Positions 9,704 to 41,889 of a stretch of DNA of 43,984 nucleotides are shown here, in pieces. The stretch covers positions 1 to 43,984 of the forward strand of contig JAURDE010000004.1 in NCBI GenBank assembly GCA_030828105.1, read 5' to 3'. Below the pieces are notes generated by a model. The model was not told the origin of the DNA. It saw only the letters and a program-made list of their open reading frames with translations, and ran no database searches. The DNA is from Bdellovibrionota bacterium (lineage in GTDB: Bacteria; Bdellovibrionota; Bacteriovoracia; Bacteriovoracales; Bacteriovoracaceae). The position numbers and the translations under genes are program-made. Positions within the stretch are counted from its first letter, which is position 1; every line of letters begins with the position of its first letter.

Positions 9704-9908
9704 GTCTTTCTCTTACCTCTTGAAATTTTTTTTGATTTTCAAGGACCTTAGCTTCAGGGTCACGTCCCATTTTTTGTAAAATACTAAGACCTTTTTCAAG
9801 ACCTGCTAAAATGCGTTCCACATCGTCTAAGTACGACTGAGCGCTATCTTCATCTAAACTACTCTCAAGTAATTTTAAGAAATATTCAGGTTCTTTATCA
9901 GTAGACAC
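9681..9908 (-). CDS. Small coiled-coil protein downstream of nuoI
   Basis: 75 residues, highly charged and predicted entirely helical, without a signal peptide or membrane segment. I do not recognise a family. It uses a GTG start whose first base is the last base of the nuoI stop codon (TAGTG), a strong sign of translational coupling to the complex I genes. It could be a small factor for complex I assembly or iron-sulfur insertion, but this is only position-based. Its 3' end overlaps the rlmI-like gene by 23 bases. Confidence 0.6.
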   Translation of the reverse strand: MSTDKEPEYFLKLLESSLDEDSAQSYLDDVERILAGLEKGLSILQKMGRDPEAKVLENQKKFQEVRERLKKILKE

Positions 9909-10435
9909 TACTTAACTATTCGGTCTCTCCACCTTCTAATTTCCGGGTCTAGATAATCAATTTTCATCTGACCTAGAGTATAGGTGGCATATTCGTAATC
10001 GGTGGTATGAGTCAAACATTGTGTAGGACAAACCGTTGTACAAAGACCGCAGTAGCAGCAAAGGGCCGTATCAATTGTATATTGAGTTAGATCAAGCCTA
10101 ATGGGAGTTCCATCTTTAGTTTTAATTTTTGGTGCTTCTTTATCTCTTCTATTTGCTGAGATATAGATACAATCAACAGGGCAAGAAGTAGCACATTGTA
10201 AGCAGGAGATGCAGTTTTCCGCATCATTAAAAAGCCTTGATCTAGAGTTTTCAGGAAGTACTTCTCTTACCTCAGGGTATTCAATAGAAACCACAGGCTC
10301 CGAATAAATATATTTTGAGGTAATTTTCAGTCCTTTAATAAGGGATCTTACCGCCACCCAAATATTAGAAAAATACTTTTTAAAAGTTAGCTCTTCATGA
10401 TGGTCTTGGGTTTTTATGTCTTGATCTGCATGCAT
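9908..10435 (-). CDS. nuoI: NADH-quinone oxidoreductase subunit I
   Basis: The peripheral-arm ferredoxin-like subunit that carries clusters N6a and N6b and passes electrons towards NuoB and quinone. Both [4Fe-4S] motifs are present: CISCLQCATSCP and CCYCGLCTTVCP, in a 175-residue protein of normal size. The N-terminal amphipathic region before them is also typical. It directly follows nuoD, an unusual neighbour order because nuoE-F-G-H normally come between or nearby. It is co-transcribed with nuoB-C-D and coupled to a small downstream gene. Confidence 0.95.
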   Translation of the reverse strand: MHADQDIKTQDHHEELTFKKYFSNIWVAVRSLIKGLKITSKYIYSEPVVSIEYPEVREVLPENSRSRLFNDAENCISCLQCATSCPVDCIYISANRRDKEAPKIKTKDGTPIRLDLTQYTIDTALCCYCGLCTTVCPTQCLTHTTDYEYATYTLGQMKIDYLDPEIRRWRDRIVK

Positions 10436-10453
10436 GATTATTTCTCCAAAATA

Positions 10454-11626
10454 TTATCGATCAACTTCACCTAAAACAATGTCAATACTTCCAATGGTAG
10501 CAACAAAGTCAGCAATCATCTGCCCTGGTGCCAAATCAGGTAACATACTTACGTGGGTAAAACATGAGGACTTAACTTTAAGTCTATAAGGTGTCTTACC
10601 ACCGTCAGAAATAATATGGTACCCTAACTCTCCTCTAGGACATTCGGTTCTCAAATATATTTCACCTTTAGGCAGCTTGATAATCTTAGGAACTTTACCC
10701 ATTACAGGACCTTCTTCAATACCTTCAAGGGCCTGTCTAATAATTTTGATGGATTCTTTCATTTCCATCATCCTTACATAATATCTATCCCAACAATCGC
10801 CTAATTTACCTTGTGTTCCTTCTCCGACAATCACATCAAAGTCAAACTTATCGTAAATTGAGTAAGGTCTTTTCTTTCTTAAATCCCAATCGATTCCAGA
10901 TCCTCTAAGGACAGGACCTGTTGCACCATAGCTATAAGCTGTTTCTTCATCAATAACACCTACATTAGCGGTTCTTTCGATAAAGATTTTATTTAATCCA
11001 ACGAGGTTGTGATATTTATCAAGCTCTCCTTCCATTCGATCAACAAAACCAGAGATTCTTTTGAGCTGATCACTTGTCATATCATTCCATACGCCCCCAA
11101 TCCAAAAATAGTTATAGAGGAGTCTGGCCCCGGAGATTTCTTCAAAGATTCTCAGGATAAATTCTCTTTCTTGAAACGCATAAAGGAAAGGGGTGAAGGC
11201 ACCGAGGTCAATAGCATAGGTACCAAAATACATTAAGTGTGATGCGATTCTTTGTAGCTCACTACAAATGATTCTAATATATTCTGCTCTTATAGGAACT
11301 TCTGTTCCCAACATTTTTTCAACAGCGATTGAATAACCCAACTCCATATTCATGGCAGCGAGATAATCCATACGATCAACAAATGGAATAACTCCACGGT
11401 AATCAACACTTTCAGCATGTTTTTCAAAACATCTGTGAAGATAACCAAGGTGTGGTGTTGCTTTAACCACAATTTCTGAGTCTGTTTGAATCTCTACTCT
11501 TAGAACACCGTGTGTAGCTGGGTGTTGAGGCCCCATATTAATGGTAAGCAACTCAGTTTTTAATCTTTCAAACTCTGGATCAGTTGGACTTTCAATATCT
11601 TCATTAATAATAATTTGATTATCCAC
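10454..11626 (-). CDS. nuoD: NADH-quinone oxidoreductase subunit D
   Basis: The 49-kDa-type subunit of complex I, which forms the quinone-binding site together with NuoB. The protein has 390 residues. MGPQHPATHGVLR near residue 31 supplies the conserved His residues facing quinone, and the C-terminus ends with the family's IDIVLGEVDR. NuoC is encoded separately just upstream, so this is not a NuoCD fusion. Spacing of 17 bases to nuoC and 18 bases to nuoI supports one operon. Confidence 0.96.
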   Translation of the reverse strand: MDNQIIINEDIESPTDPEFERLKTELLTINMGPQHPATHGVLRVEIQTDSEIVVKATPHLGYLHRCFEKHAESVDYRGVIPFVDRMDYLAAMNMELGYSIAVEKMLGTEVPIRAEYIRIICSELQRIASHLMYFGTYAIDLGAFTPFLYAFQEREFILRIFEEISGARLLYNYFWIGGVWNDMTSDQLKRISGFVDRMEGELDKYHNLVGLNKIFIERTANVGVIDEETAYSYGATGPVLRGSGIDWDLRKKRPYSIYDKFDFDVIVGEGTQGKLGDCWDRYYVRMMEMKESIKIIRQALEGIEEGPVMGKVPKIIKLPKGEIYLRTECPRGELGYHIISDGGKTPYRLKVKSSCFTHVSMLPDLAPGQMIADFVATIGSIDIVLGEVDR

Positions 11627-11643
11627 TCAAAATTCCTTTTGGC

Positions 11644-12213
11644 TTATGAGTAACGACCGTTATTCATTGGTGATTTGTTAGAAATAGAATTAGCTGAAGT
11701 TTTGACGCCGAAGCCTTGATCTTCAAGATTGAGTTTATCTTCGGGATAAACTTCCATGCCGTTATACTCTTTAGCTGCGACATAATCTTTTCTTAAAGGA
11801 AATCCTTCCCAATCTTGGGGGCAAAGAATTCTTCTATGATCGGGGTGATCTTTAAAAACCACTCCTAACATATCAAAACATTCTCTTTCCAAAAAGTTAG
11901 CTGACTTCCATAGCTCCACAACAGAATCAAGTTCAGGGTTTTCTCTTGGTAAATTCGCCTTAAGAATAACTTCGTGATTATTAATAAAATCAGCTAAGAT
12001 ATAGCTTACTTCAATATGAGGATTTTCATCTACGTAATCAGTTCCAGTGATAACTTGAAGAACGTTAAAACTATTATCTTTAAGTGCTTGGCACACCTCT
12101 TTTATCTTAGAGGCTTCAACGCTGATACTTGAGTCTCCAACCTCAGCACTATTTACTGTTGCATTGGCACCGTTTACTTTAGAATTAATTAAGCTCGCCC
12201 ATTGATCATGCAT
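11644..12213 (-). CDS. nuoC: NADH-quinone oxidoreductase subunit C
   Basis: The 30-kDa-type structural subunit of the complex I peripheral arm, 189 residues. The signature is clear: [20 protein letters not shown], then [18 protein letters not shown]. The C-terminal extension after LRKDY is about 40 residues and has low complexity near its end. It overlaps the end of nuoB by eight bases, so the two are likely coupled. Confidence 0.95.
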
Positions 12214-12688
12214 GCTTCACCCACTTATCTCTAAGAAGTCTTTCGTTCGCTATTTTCTTTTGAAGAGTCATTAAACCTTCAATTAAAGCTTCAGGTCTTG
12301 GTGGACAACCAGGAACATAGACATCTACAGGAATGATTTCATCAACACCCTTAAGAACATGATATCCATGTTGCCAATAAGGTCCTCCCTTATTCGCACA
12401 AGAACCCATTGAGATAACGTATTTAGGTTCAGGCATTTGATCGTAAAGAGTTTTAATTCTTGAGGCCATTTTTAGGGTAACAGTACCGGCAACAATCATA
12501 AGATCTGCTCTTCTTGGTGTGGCCATAAAAGCTCCACAACCAAATCGTTCAAGATCGTATTTTGAAGCACCTGTTGCCATCATTTCAATAGCACAACAAG
12601 CTAGTCCAAAGGTCATAGGCCAAAGTGAATTTTTTCGGCCCCAATTAAGGAAGTCATCCGCTTTTGTAAGGAGGACGCCGTCTTGCAT
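12206..12688 (-). CDS. nuoB: NADH-quinone oxidoreductase subunit B
   Basis: Carries cluster N2, the last iron-sulfur centre before quinone. Ligands are visible as the tandem Cys in [10 protein letters not shown], Cys in MGSCANKGG and Cys in [10 protein letters not shown]. The protein is 160 residues, the normal size. AGGAG lies six bases before the ATG. No nuoA is found upstream, where it usually precedes nuoB: the next 100 bases are non-coding and then an unrelated gene ends. Confidence 0.96.
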
Positions 12689-30357: not shown

Positions 30358-31068
30358 CTAATTGAAATCAGGATTACTTTCTTTGTATTTTCTAATAATT
30401 CTTCTTCTTTTAATAGATGCATTTTCAAAAGTCATCTTAGAGCAAGTGCCTAACATTTTTTTCTTAGAGTACTTATCTCCAGTTACATATTTATGACCAA
30501 GTATTGCCCCTGCATTTAAAGCACTTATGAGATTACCTCGCCCATAATCAATCATGTAGGTTCCTTCATCTAAGGAAAAATGTTTTCCTACCTTTCTATA
30601 AAGTAATGATGTTTGATACTCATTATCTAAAGGATTGTTTCTGTATACATCATACTTATGATCTCCTGGTTTATAAGACTTCATTAAGCCTGACAGCATT
30701 ATGTCCCAGACATCTAAAGCGGGGTACCTCCCTGAGAATCCTTCTGTAGCAAGAGGTGAACCCCAAAGTGATAAATACTCAGTTGTTGTACAAAATAATA
30801 TTTTAATTTCAGCAAGAGAGCCCCCCACACTATTAAAAATCCATTCTCCACTATCTGGAGGAACAACTAGTTCTGGATAGGCCTGGTATATTCTCTTATG
30901 AACTTCATCTAAAAAGGCCTTAGGATTATCCTTAAAGGCCATTTCTTTACCTACATCCTGAGCAATCTTAGTTAAGATATTTACACTAAAAACATATTTT
31001 TTTGAATGGAGTGGAAAGCTTAAAAATAATAGTAGCAATACAATCGAAATCTTTCTGATCATCATCAT
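30358..31068 (-). CDS. Exported ERG2 / sigma-1 receptor-like protein
   Basis: 236 residues from the ATG at 31068 (AAGGA five bases upstream), with an N-terminal signal or anchor helix. The rest follows the ERG2/sigma-1 receptor family along its length: KKYVF near the start, AYPELVVP, EWIFNSVGGSL (75-85), TEYLSLWGSPLATEGFSGRY (96-115), an Asp at 122 before xxxSG, and YMIDYGRGNL (171-180). In human sigma-1 receptor Asp126 and Glu172 line the ligand pocket; here the corresponding spots appear as Asp122 and Asp174. The motif GHSGRY reads GFSGRY. Eukaryotic members isomerise sterols (ERG2) or bind amines (sigma-1), and a sterol or other lipid ligand here is inference. Confidence 0.82.
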   Translation of the reverse strand: MMMIRKISIVLLLLFLSFPLHSKKYVFSVNILTKIAQDVGKEMAFKDNPKAFLDEVHKRIYQAYPELVVPPDSGEWIFNSVGGSLAEIKILFCTTTEYLSLWGSPLATEGFSGRYPALDVWDIMLSGLMKSYKPGDHKYDVYRNNPLDNEYQTSLLYRKVGKHFSLDEGTYMIDYGRGNLISALNAGAILGHKYVTGDKYSKKKMLGTCSKMTFENASIKRRRIIRKYKESNPDFN

Positions 31069-31124
31069 TGTCATCCTTAACAAAGAGTATTAAATCATTT
31101 TAACATACTATCTCTGATACTATA

Positions 31125-38451: not shown

Positions 38452-41400
38452 TCAAATAGGATCCATAGCACTAGGTAAACATCTGGCATCTCCATCTGCT
38501 ATGACGCCACGTCTTCCACAGATTTGATTTCCTCTATAAATCACATGATTAGAAGGAATTAAAATGAAAGAACCTCTTGGGAATGATGGGCGTCCAAATT
38601 TTATTTTAGACTTTAGGCCTTTGGCCTGTTTTTTCCATTTATTGGCCATGCTAGGAATCATAAGGCCTGGAGTGGGTCTAAAAGCTTTGCTTGGTTCCGC
38701 GCTACCTTGCCATTGCATGACCATGTATTGATCAACACTTTTAAATTTCTTTTGAGTATTTTCAAGAAAATATTGAAGAGTATTGACTATAAACTGATTG
38801 TTAACAATACCTCTACCAAACTTGGCCATACCTTTGGAAAAATCTTTTGCGAGCTTTCTAAAGTCTTGATAGCTAAGTCCTTTATTTTTTTCGTCAAACG
38901 GATTATTCTTATTCATGATCTCAAGCCCTAGGCTCATTTGCTTTAAATCTTTTCCAACTTCTTCTATATAAGCATTCTCACACATATTCCTTGTTGGCTT
39001 GGTACCTACATCTGATAAAATACAAATCTCCTTATGGTCATTGTAGAAGCTTTTTGAAAGATATTTTTTGACCCCGTTGGCTCCGTTGGCCTTGAAAACA
39101 TTTATTGCCTCTATCTGCGTTTTTCCGCCAAATAATTTTGCAAATGATTTACTTTTAATATGATTTTCAATTTCTTTATCACTTAATTCATCTAGATTAC
39201 CCTCATCATAAGGGTTCTTCTCAAACCATATTTTTACAAAATCGATGGCAGTTTTAGCTAATCCGCTAAGATCTTTGTCTTGTCTCTGATAGGCCATAAG
39301 AGAAAGAATTGCCTCTTGGGAAAGTATCCAGTCCGCTGTAAGCTGAAGATAAGTGGCTTGAGATTCATACGGCCTAGGTCTAGTAACCACATATCTTCGG
39401 TAACCAATACGTTCCGAGAGGTTTTTAAGCTCATCTAGCCACTCATCTTTACCTGCGCCATCTCGGTCATAAGCATACTTTAAAGCAGCAAAAATTTTAA
39501 TACTCTTCCGTGGACCTTGATTCTTAGCAAGCTCTTCTTTGGTTGCAGGCTTGAGTAAAGTTATATCAGAAATACCACCATAAAAAGCAGTACTTCTTGT
39601 ATGATGGTGTGAAAGAAGTCCGGTAGTTCTATTTTCTGCTTTAAAAGCTCCTATATAATTTTTTAGAACGAGACCTTCCTCAATAACCTTAGCAGACTCA
39701 ACAGCAACTTCTTCATTTCCACTGTTATAATTAAAACTAAAAAGGACTGGGATCCCTGCCGAGGTTTTATTAGAGACTCCATAGGCGTGTCTTTTTCCAA
39801 CACTAATCATAAAAGCATCAAAAGTATCTTTCATTGTATTTATGACAAGAACTCTTTCCCTATCTAGGTAGATATTAAAAGCGTCTTTCTTCTTTTTGTT
39901 GTCCATGGCCTTTTTCTTCCACTTTAAACCAAGCGATAAAGCTCTAAGACGATTAAGTGCTTTTTCATCTATTTTCTTACCTATAATTATTTTTTTCTTT
40001 TCATATACAGCAATTCTTTCTTTCACGAGCTCCTTTGTGTAAACTTTTTTAAACTGATGACTCTTTTTATTTATAAAAAGTCTATTATATTTAAAGTGTG
40101 CCGCCATATAATGTTGCTTTGAATAAGCTACACGAGCTGCAGGTGATAATTTGAGATCTTTCTTTTTATGCAATATCAGCGCTGCTAAAGTAGTAGCTGA
40201 AACAGATGTAATCTGAGGAAGCCTCTCCACTTGATCCAAAGTAAGCTCAAGAAAGGGTTTAAGTTTTCCATTGTCTTGCAAAATCTCATCAGCTAAAAGT
40301 GTGTTTTTTACATATTTAACCTTTGGTTTTTCAATCATTTTCTCATGATAAAATTCTACCTCTCTTTGCTCAAGAGTCTTTTTACTATTCCAATACCATC
40401 CTTTAAGCATTCTATTAAGATCTTCGGCAGCGGCGAGTTTTTTCATATACTCATACTTTACCACGAGAATATTTCCTTTAAGCATTTCCTGAAAAAGATC
40501 TTCCCCCTTTTCAGTATCAAGGTTAAATTCATAGGCTATAGTTTCATCTAAAGTGTCATACCACTCTTTAGCTTTTTGTCCTGCGAGAAGTTTACCGTTT
40601 ATATTCGCAGAAGCGACTTCCCCTGAAACGAAAGCAACCTGAACTCTTACTTGCCCAGGCTTTCTTCCTTGAATTCTTCTGATTTGCTTTGTCCAAGACC
40701 CCGTCACACTAGCTCCAGCGCCCACACCAACTGTACCATAAGCAGCACTAACACCAGCACCTATCGCAATTGAACCACTAACCTTATAAGTCAGGGCATC
40801 TCCAATATTCATTCTTTCAAGAACTTGTTTTTTATCTGTGGGAACTCTTGTATAAAACTCATAACGCATTTTCTTAGCTTCTGCATAGGTTTTATAAAAC
40901 CTTTCAGCTATATAAGTACCTCCTGCACTCACGGTGAGATTAAAATTAATCCGTGGTAAAGCACCTGCTGCCGAATCAGCGACTAATCCGGTTATACCTC
41001 CACTAGTTCCCACCCCAAGAGTTAAAGAGCCTCTTCTCATTTGAACAACTTTAAATCCCTGTGGAGTTTGCGTGGCCTCAACCTTGTTTGTCTCTGGATT
41101 AAACTGAAAGTCAGGATTATCTGAGCTGTTAAGGTTTATTATGTGGGTATACATATCGACATCGGCCATTACTATTGGGTAAGGAACAAAATTAAAACCA
41201 ATGGTCTTTCTTTTTATTTCTGTTTCATGCTGATCATTCTTCTTCTCTTGTTCACCATTATTTTGGTCCTCATTTGACGAAGTATAGGAGTCTTCCCCCG
41301 TGCCATCTCCAGGTGCTGGATCATCTGTATTTTGTGAAGTTGTATTATCTCCTCCACCACCACCACCATTATTGTTATTACCTGGTCCAAGTCCTTGATT

Positions 41401-41889
41401 GTCTTTTCCGGAAGGGTTATCTACCCCTACATGATTATCAGGGTCTGCTCCTGCTCCTCCTCCTTGCCCTTGATCTGTTCCTGGGCCACCACCGTCTGCA
41501 TTATTATTGACCGGTAAATTAGGGTCGGATCCTTCCGCAGGATTACTAGATACACCAGGATCTGTGGGCGGTGCACCTCCATTATCAATAATCTCAGGTT
41601 CAGGAGAAAAATTAGATCCACCTCCTGGACTGGCCGTAGGCCCACTAGAGGTCGTTGTTCCACCACCGGGTCCACCAGCTGTATCAGGGGGACCTCCACC
41701 AGGAGGAGTAGTAACTCCTTGGTGTACATTTCCTGAAGGAGTCAATCCTCCATGATCTCCACTACCACCGGTTGTCCAAGTCTCACCTGATTCCGCCGTG
41801 TAGAGTTCTGGCTTACCAGCGTAAGACACAAAAGAATAGCCGGTAATAATAAAAGTAATAAAAAGTTTTAACATTAAAGATACTTTCAT
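38452..41889 (-). CDS. Large secreted protein with Gly/Pro/Asn-rich N-terminal region (1,145 aa)
   Basis: Signal peptide at 1-24. Residues about 30-225 are low-complexity, dominated by Gly, Pro, Asn, Asp, Thr and Ser, with runs such as NNNNGGGGGG; this looks like a flexible, secreted or surface linker. Residues 280-420 are beta- and Gly-rich with small side chains (GSIAIGAGVSAAYGTVGVG), suggesting a strand-rich, perhaps membrane-interacting domain. The remainder is mostly helical, Lys-rich, with few Cys until the end. I recognise no family or catalytic motif. It is monocistronic, with a clear -10 box upstream and a strong terminator downstream. Adhesin, toxin or matrix protein are all possible. 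Confidence 0.75.
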   Translation of the reverse strand: MKVSLMLKLFITFIITGYSFVSYAGKPELYTAESGETWTTGGSGDHGGLTPSGNVHQGVTTPPGGGPPDTAGGPGGGTTTSSGPTASPGGGSNFSPEPEIIDNGGAPPTDPGVSSNPAEGSDPNLPVNNNADGGGPGTDQGQGGGAGADPDNHVGVDNPSGKDNQGLGPGNNNNGGGGGGDNTTSQNTDDPAPGDGTGEDSYTSSNEDQNNGEQEKKNDQHETEIKRKTIGFNFVPYPIVMADVDMYTHIINLNSSDNPDFQFNPETNKVEATQTPQGFKVVQMRRGSLTLGVGTSGGITGLVADSAAGALPRINFNLTVSAGGTYIAERFYKTYAEAKKMRYEFYTRVPTDKKQVLERMNIGDALTYKVSGSIAIGAGVSAAYGTVGVGAGASVTGSWTKQIRRIQGRKPGQVRVQVAFVSGEVASANINGKLLAGQKAKEWYDTLDETIAYEFNLDTEKGEDLFQEMLKGNILVVKYEYMKKLAAAEDLNRMLKGWYWNSKKTLEQREVEFYHEKMIEKPKVKYVKNTLLADEILQDNGKLKPFLELTLDQVERLPQITSVSATTLAALILHKKKDLKLSPAARVAYSKQHYMAAHFKYNRLFINKKSHQFKKVYTKELVKERIAVYEKKKIIIGKKIDEKALNRLRALSLGLKWKKKAMDNKKKKDAFNIYLDRERVLVINTMKDTFDAFMISVGKRHAYGVSNKTSAGIPVLFSFNYNSGNEEVAVESAKVIEEGLVLKNYIGAFKAENRTTGLLSHHHTRSTAFYGGISDITLLKPATKEELAKNQGPRKSIKIFAALKYAYDRDGAGKDEWLDELKNLSERIGYRRYVVTRPRPYESQATYLQLTADWILSQEAILSLMAYQRQDKDLSGLAKTAIDFVKIWFEKNPYDEGNLDELSDKEIENHIKSKSFAKLFGGKTQIEAINVFKANGANGVKKYLSKSFYNDHKEICILSDVGTKPTRNMCENAYIEEVGKDLKQMSLGLEIMNKNNPFDEKNKGLSYQDFRKLAKDFSKGMAKFGRGIVNNQFIVNTLQYFLENTQKKFKSVDQYMVMQWQGSAEPSKAFRPTPGLMIPSMANKWKKQAKGLKSKIKFGRPSFPRGSFILIPSNHVIYRGNQICGRRGVIADGDARCLPSAMDPI

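Follow-up and report, generated by a model that had tools for sequence, protein, structure and literature searches.

The window, a stretch of 43,984 nucleotides from a Bdellovibrionota bacterium (contig JAURDE010000004.1), encodes a protein that is confirmed as a member of the ERG2/sigma-1 receptor family. It belongs to a clade of exported bacterial proteins that share a pair of cysteines at the position of the ligand entrance. The reading favoured here, to which we give a probability of roughly 55%, is that the protein is an exported barrel, derived from the ERG2 family, that binds sterol-like lipids of outside origin.

Gene, family and predicted fold

The open reading frame lies on the minus strand, with an ATG at 31068 and a stop codon that ends at 30358, and it encodes 236 amino acids (Table 1). 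A TTG further upstream, at 31083, would give an alternative form of 241 amino acids. A sequence resembling a ribosome-binding site is located 5 nt ahead of the ATG at 31068, and the start and coordinates given by an earlier annotation made from the sequence alone (the first-pass annotation) are therefore correct. Residues are numbered here in the 241-aa form that begins at the TTG; subtracting 5 gives the 236-aa numbers used in that annotation.

The assignment to the ERG2/sigma-1 receptor family was originally made on a set of four motifs (WIFNSVGG, TEYLSLWGSPL, TEGFSGRY and YMIDYGRG), and all four are found in the protein. The assignment is borne out by the Pfam family PF04622 (ERG2_Sigma1R), which matches the protein with E = 2.6e-28 and a score of 99.3 bits (cut-off 21), over residues 15-190 and over positions 8-175 of the 210 in the profile, which is most of the domain. 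NCBIfam gave no model for the protein. In a phmmer search the only significant sequence matches in the PDB are sigma-1 receptors (7w2h at 1.4e-15 and the human 5hk1 at 4.6e-11). A model was also made with AlphaFold2, using as input an alignment of seven sequences, the window protein and the locus proteins. This has a mean pLDDT of 79.8 and a pTM of 0.77, with low confidence in the signal peptide and in residues 191-195 of the 236. When the model was compared with the PDB by Foldseek, the 42 top matches were all sigma-1 receptor chains, with E-values of about 1e-15 to 3e-14 and TM-scores (normalised by query length) of 0.60-0.72, and the steroid-bound structures 8wue and 8w4b are among them. 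The next matches, at 7e-6 and weaker, are small barrel proteins, cupins among them. The cupin-like barrel of the sigma-1 fold, which the first-pass annotation had anticipated, is thus predicted by the model; neither the lack of a significant family match nor a wrong fold was encountered.

Table 1. Features of the gene and of its product, with positions in the window
Feature	Position	Strand	Basis
ERG2/sigma-1 receptor-like exported protein gene	30358..31068	minus	ORF, 236 aa; Pfam PF04622; PDB sequence matches to sigma-1 receptors
AAGGA, ribosome-binding-like site	31074..31078	minus	5 nt before ATG; direct sequence reading
Signal peptide-like N-terminus MMMIRKISIVLLLLFLSFPLHS	31003..31068	minus	positive n-region, hydropathy
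PF04622 domain, predicted cupin-like beta-barrel and flanking helices	30514..31041	minus	Pfam, AlphaFold2 model, Foldseek
Cys98 (241-aa numbering), Ala98 of human sigma-1	30790..30792	minus	alignment
Phe116, replacing His of GHSGRY	30736..30738	minus	alignment; not diagnostic of exported form
Asp127 (Asp122 in first-pass annotation), putative counterpart of human sigma-1 Asp126	30703..30705	minus	alignment
Asp179 (Asp174 in first-pass annotation), putative counterpart of human sigma-1 Glu172	30547..30549	minus	alignment
Cys214, Tyr206 of human sigma-1, C-terminal helix	30442..30444	minus	alignment

Two bacterial forms of the family

Bacterial PF04622 proteins come in two architectures, cytosolic and exported. 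Most of them are of the cytosolic kind, which is about 185 aa long, begins at the domain and carries no export signal. Where the open frame continues upstream, as it does in many GC-rich loci, the start of this form was set by the conserved beginning of the domain. The window protein is of the exported kind. Its N-terminus has a positively charged n-region and an 11-residue hydropathy maximum of 3.0, which supports the export signal predicted by the first-pass annotation. The hydrophobic stretch is short and resembles a cleavable signal peptide, and the signal may be cleaved as opposed to serving as a membrane anchor. Signal-like N-termini are also found in L004 (whose protein is identical to that in genome G001), L005, L010 and L011. 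In the myxobacterial members L048 and L061 the hydrophobic stretch ends in a lipobox (LAIAGC/S and LVLTGC/S, respectively). In both of these the PF04622 domain is preceded by an additional Cys-rich N-terminal region. The exported-type bacterial proteins would have an extracytoplasmic location. Since the C-terminal domain of sigma-1 is in the ER lumen (PMC10094450), they would be found on the topologically equivalent side.

The tree of the family has 43 rows, of which 6 are exported and 35 cytosolic, with eukaryotic rows besides; the seventh exported member, L061, is not included and was scored by eye. The six exported proteins are on one side of a single branch with a support of 99/95. This support is 94/88 when the two Cys columns are masked and the long-branch rows removed, and 94/94 without L048. 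The exported bacterial members are one clade (support 94-99), and the window protein shares with it the export signal, both cysteines and monophyly. Long branches are seen for L048, L050 and the window protein, and because of such branches, and of a yeast ERG2 row whose sequence is provisional, the placement of the eukaryotic rows is unreliable.

The family had been described in the first-pass annotation as best known from eukaryotes, but it is not solely eukaryotic, as PF04622 is carried by 34 of the 379 genomes in the Myxococcota sample (the phylum of the L007 genome), mainly in the cytosolic form. It is found in 3/369 genomes of the window's phylum and 2/129 of its family, in 2/58 genomes of the phylum to which L005 belongs, and in a single genome of the Cyanobacteriota sample (1/292; the phylum of the Rivularia genome). 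So patchy a distribution points to either horizontal transfer or repeated loss. No PF04622 relatives were found among the viral contigs, plasmids and phages searched, and a mobile or phage origin is thus unsupported. A scan of the genome contigs for close relatives with a single sequence gave none, and a query with an alignment gave six relatives. One genome, G372, has a second and divergent PF04622 copy (L046, G372:C169, 152 bits) besides the copy at C33.

A cysteine pair at the ligand entrance

Neither the exported clade nor its cysteine pair had been noticed in the first-pass annotation. Cys98 and Cys214 are both present in 7/7 exported proteins and in 0/35 cytosolic tree rows. Cys214 taken alone gives the same counts (7/7 and 0/35), and Cys98 alone is seen in L013 and L034, the sole cases among the 35 cytosolic rows. 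For the 6 exported rows of the tree, the association of the pair with export has a Fisher p of 2e-7, uncorrected for shared ancestry. The Xenopus row also has a Cys in the Tyr206 column, but this one is engineered (PDB 7w2h, Cys179/Cys203 variant) and was therefore left out of the count of natural cysteines.

In sigma-1, docking places Ala98 and Tyr206 in the same hydrophobic sub-pocket (PMC6822515; PMC8232171). The ligand entrance of the Xenopus receptor opens between alpha4 and alpha5, with Tyr203 (human Tyr206) moving (PMC10094450), and an engineered Cys179-Cys203 disulfide in the same receptor lowered the number of binding sites per protomer from 0.92 to 0.18 (PMC8913746). The bacterial pair has the same alpha5 position as this engineered disulfide, with a partner in the barrel instead of in alpha4, and the analogy is therefore partial. 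A Cys98-Cys214 disulfide probably forms and would staple the C-terminal helix to the barrel.

Pocket residues

The two acids that the first-pass annotation proposed for the pocket do align with the acid pair of human sigma-1. The column of Glu172 is Glu in 35/35 cytosolic rows and also in the exported L010 and L048, and Asp is found there only in the window protein, L004, L005 and L011. As read from the alignment, the change from Glu172 to Asp is distinctive, being limited to four exported members. The first-pass annotation also drew attention to the replacement of the conserved His by Phe. The substitution is present but unremarkable: the cytosolic L019, L020, L039, L040, L042 and L047 have Phe too, and the exported L011 keeps His. 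The change therefore marks nothing, and it was rejected as a hallmark of the exported form. Tyr103, Ser117 and Tyr120 are retained in the window protein, with Tyr or Phe at position 120 across the exported clade. The window protein has Ser, Ser and Leu where sigma-1 has Trp89, Leu105 and Trp164, and the bacterial rows generally lack Trp89 and Trp164. These are residues of the hydrophobic zone of sigma-1, and the ligand may therefore not be a sterol.

These residues bear on two other explanations. In the first, the protein would bind cationic amphiphiles much as sigma-1 does and might, for instance, sense or scavenge amines or sphingoid bases in the periplasm. Its acid pair has the same placement as that of sigma-1, in which the amine of the ligand is held by Glu172 (PMC11224282), and it has the YGRG motif in common with sigma-1, yet the hydrophobic subsite is altered and the tree does not make the protein a sister of sigma-1, this last being a weak point given the long branches; we regard such a binder as unlikely. 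The other explanation is recruitment of the fold to an unrelated role outside the cytoplasm, structural or in the envelope, without a small ligand. The strong sequence divergence and the patchy distribution would agree with this, and so would the C-terminal lid, the helix region over the mouth of the barrel, which has a mean hydropathy of -0.09 in exported against 0.52 in cytosolic proteins (Mann-Whitney p = 2e-4, uncorrected for shared ancestry). A recruited fold is quite improbable, however, when the pocket acids, Tyr103, Ser117 and Tyr/Phe120 are conserved across the clade.

Sterol genes and genomic neighbourhood

As markers for sterol synthesis, matches over the cut-off to PF13243 (squalene/oxidosqualene cyclase) and PF01222 (ERG4/ERG24) were counted; for the cyclase, a 27-bit match in G692 and sub-cut-off matches in G568 were scored as absent. 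Neither marker was found over the cut-off in the window genome (G000) or in G001, G367, G370 and G402, and five of the six tested hosts of the exported form thus lack both. The remaining one, G793, which has an exported member of the lipoprotein type, carries both. Among the hosts of the cytosolic form the cyclase is present in 28/34, ERG24 in 29/34 and at least one of them in 31/34. The difference between exported and cytosolic hosts has a Fisher p of 0.004 for the cyclase and 5e-4 for either gene, uncorrected for relatedness. As the host genomes are draft assemblies (G000, G001 and G367 are 93, 75 and 72% complete), single gene absences are weak. The window genome has a lone weak PF01222 match of 23.6 bits, which is below the cut-off. 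A sterol biosynthesis pathway, as would go with an ERG2 isomerase, was not found in this genome (draft, 93% complete). The first-pass annotation had considered membrane lipids of the bacterium or its prey, and had named hopanoids among the ligands to try. A hopanoid or a self-made sterol is unlikely, because PF13243 and ERG24 are absent over the cut-off, and a self-made hopanoid was rejected in view of the lack of any PF13243 cyclase in the genome.

In the Rivularia locus L009, a gene of the cytosolic form stands after a 1114-aa squalene epoxidase-cyclase fusion and before a Rieske/KshA-type oxygenase. The same cluster also holds ERG24, a squalene/phytoene synthase, a P450 and a second Rieske protein, related to 4beta-methylsterol monooxygenase. 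The fusion (L009:4535-7876) has an epoxidase-like half with PF08491 (FAD-binding) and an oxidosqualene cyclase-like half with PF13249/PF13243. Cyclase matches in G371, G559, G608 and G786 are within open frames of 1144-1163 aa. On plasmid NZ_LR882940.1 of Planktothrix agardhii there is a cyclase half 67% identical to that fusion (tblastn), annotated as a prenyltransferase/squalene oxidase repeat-containing protein.

ERG2 moves a ring double bond from delta-8 to delta-7, and the window protein could be a working extracytoplasmic isomerase, in which the acid pair shifts the ring double bond of sterols from eukaryotes or from sterol-making bacteria. It is most closely related to cytosolic proteins of the ERG2 type, one of which is found in the sterol gene cluster of Rivularia with ERG24, the fusion and the P450, and both pocket acids are retained. 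We nevertheless find this doubtful: the residue in the Glu172 column is Asp instead of the Glu of all cytosolic rows, no other sterol-modifying gene was seen within the window, and sigma-1 keeps the acids and the fold without any known isomerase activity.

The gene was placed among secreted hydrolases by the first-pass annotation. An exported setting is a fair description, since 7/8 products between 21011 and 31068 (the window protein counted) have signal-like N-termini, but identifiable hydrolases in this interval are few (endonuclease I and a C92 amidase) and the products encoded immediately upstream are cytosolic. According to Pfam, a methylguanine-DNA methyltransferase gene is upstream on the same strand, and the convergent partner is the endonuclease I gene. 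No neighbourhood is conserved across the exported members examined, and none gives a clue to the ligand. Besides the protein itself, the neighbours in the window and at L005 have one weak match (26% identity, 1.3e-7), and a neighbourhood common to the window, L004 and L005 was rejected. Elsewhere in the window, on the minus strand, there is a 1145-aa protein with no Pfam match (38452-41889) and a run of NADH dehydrogenase-like genes (9908-12688; complex I 49 kDa, 30 kDa and 20 kDa subunits, and Fer4).

Proposed function and relation to known proteins

For the favoured reading, binding of external sterol-like lipids by an exported barrel, the following course is proposed. The N-terminal signal would send the protein across the inner membrane, where it would fold as a cupin-like barrel with the C-terminal helix stapled by the putative Cys98-Cys214 disulfide. 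The barrel would then take up a hydrophobic polycyclic, most likely sterol-like, external molecule, the rings of which would be held by the hydrophobic barrel while the Asp127/Asp179 pair would meet its polar or basic end. Steroids are known to bind inside the sigma-1 barrel (PMC11224282). The class of ligand is something that we infer, as is any double-bond isomerisation by the window protein, which is possible.

The closest known comparison is the sigma-1 receptor (SIGMAR1), with which the window protein shares the fold (as predicted, by Foldseek), the acid pair, the SGRY and YGRG motifs and a C-terminal domain that would be non-cytosolic. It differs from SIGMAR1 in its N-terminus, which is short and signal-like where the receptor has a longer transmembrane helix, in the two Cys that take the places of Ala98 and Tyr206, in having Asp for Glu172, and in a less hydrophobic C-terminal lid. 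Fungal ERG2, the sterol C-8 isomerase, and the cytosolic bacterial ERG2-like proteins (Myxococcota, Rivularia) have PF04622 and the same core motifs, but the cytosolic bacterial proteins are without the export signal or the Cys pair, and their genomes mostly have the cyclase and/or ERG24. As functional analogues we propose BstA/B/C (PMC10942540), bacterial extracytoplasmic sterol-binding proteins or domains. These differ in having other folds, by the description in that paper, and in coming from a sterol-making methanotroph, and no homology is claimed. In bacteria, a C-8 isomerase has already been mentioned in sterol-making methanotrophs (PMC13277303) and ERG2 in steroid clusters of sponge symbionts (PMC9531527). 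No description of the exported PF04622 branch was found in the literature searched, most of it outside subscription journals, and a search on the Pfam name found nothing; the exported branch has apparently been undescribed so far.

A wider interpretation, which we offer only tentatively, is that a branch of the sterol isomerase/sigma-1 family became an extracytoplasmic sterol-handling protein in bacteria that do not make sterols. A natural disulfide would hold the gate at the position of the Tyr206 helix, much as the engineered one blocks entry to sigma-1, and the protein may capture or isomerise sterols derived from eukaryotes.

There is still debate over the natural ligand of sigma-1, a drug target, and to our knowledge every structure reported for it shows a membrane-bound trimer. 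The ligand and the gate of this fold would be simpler to study in a bacterial relative that is exported, possibly soluble, and equipped with a conserved Cys pair at the entrance. The presence of such a protein in bacteria without detectable sterol genes points to a little-understood trait, the handling of foreign sterols.
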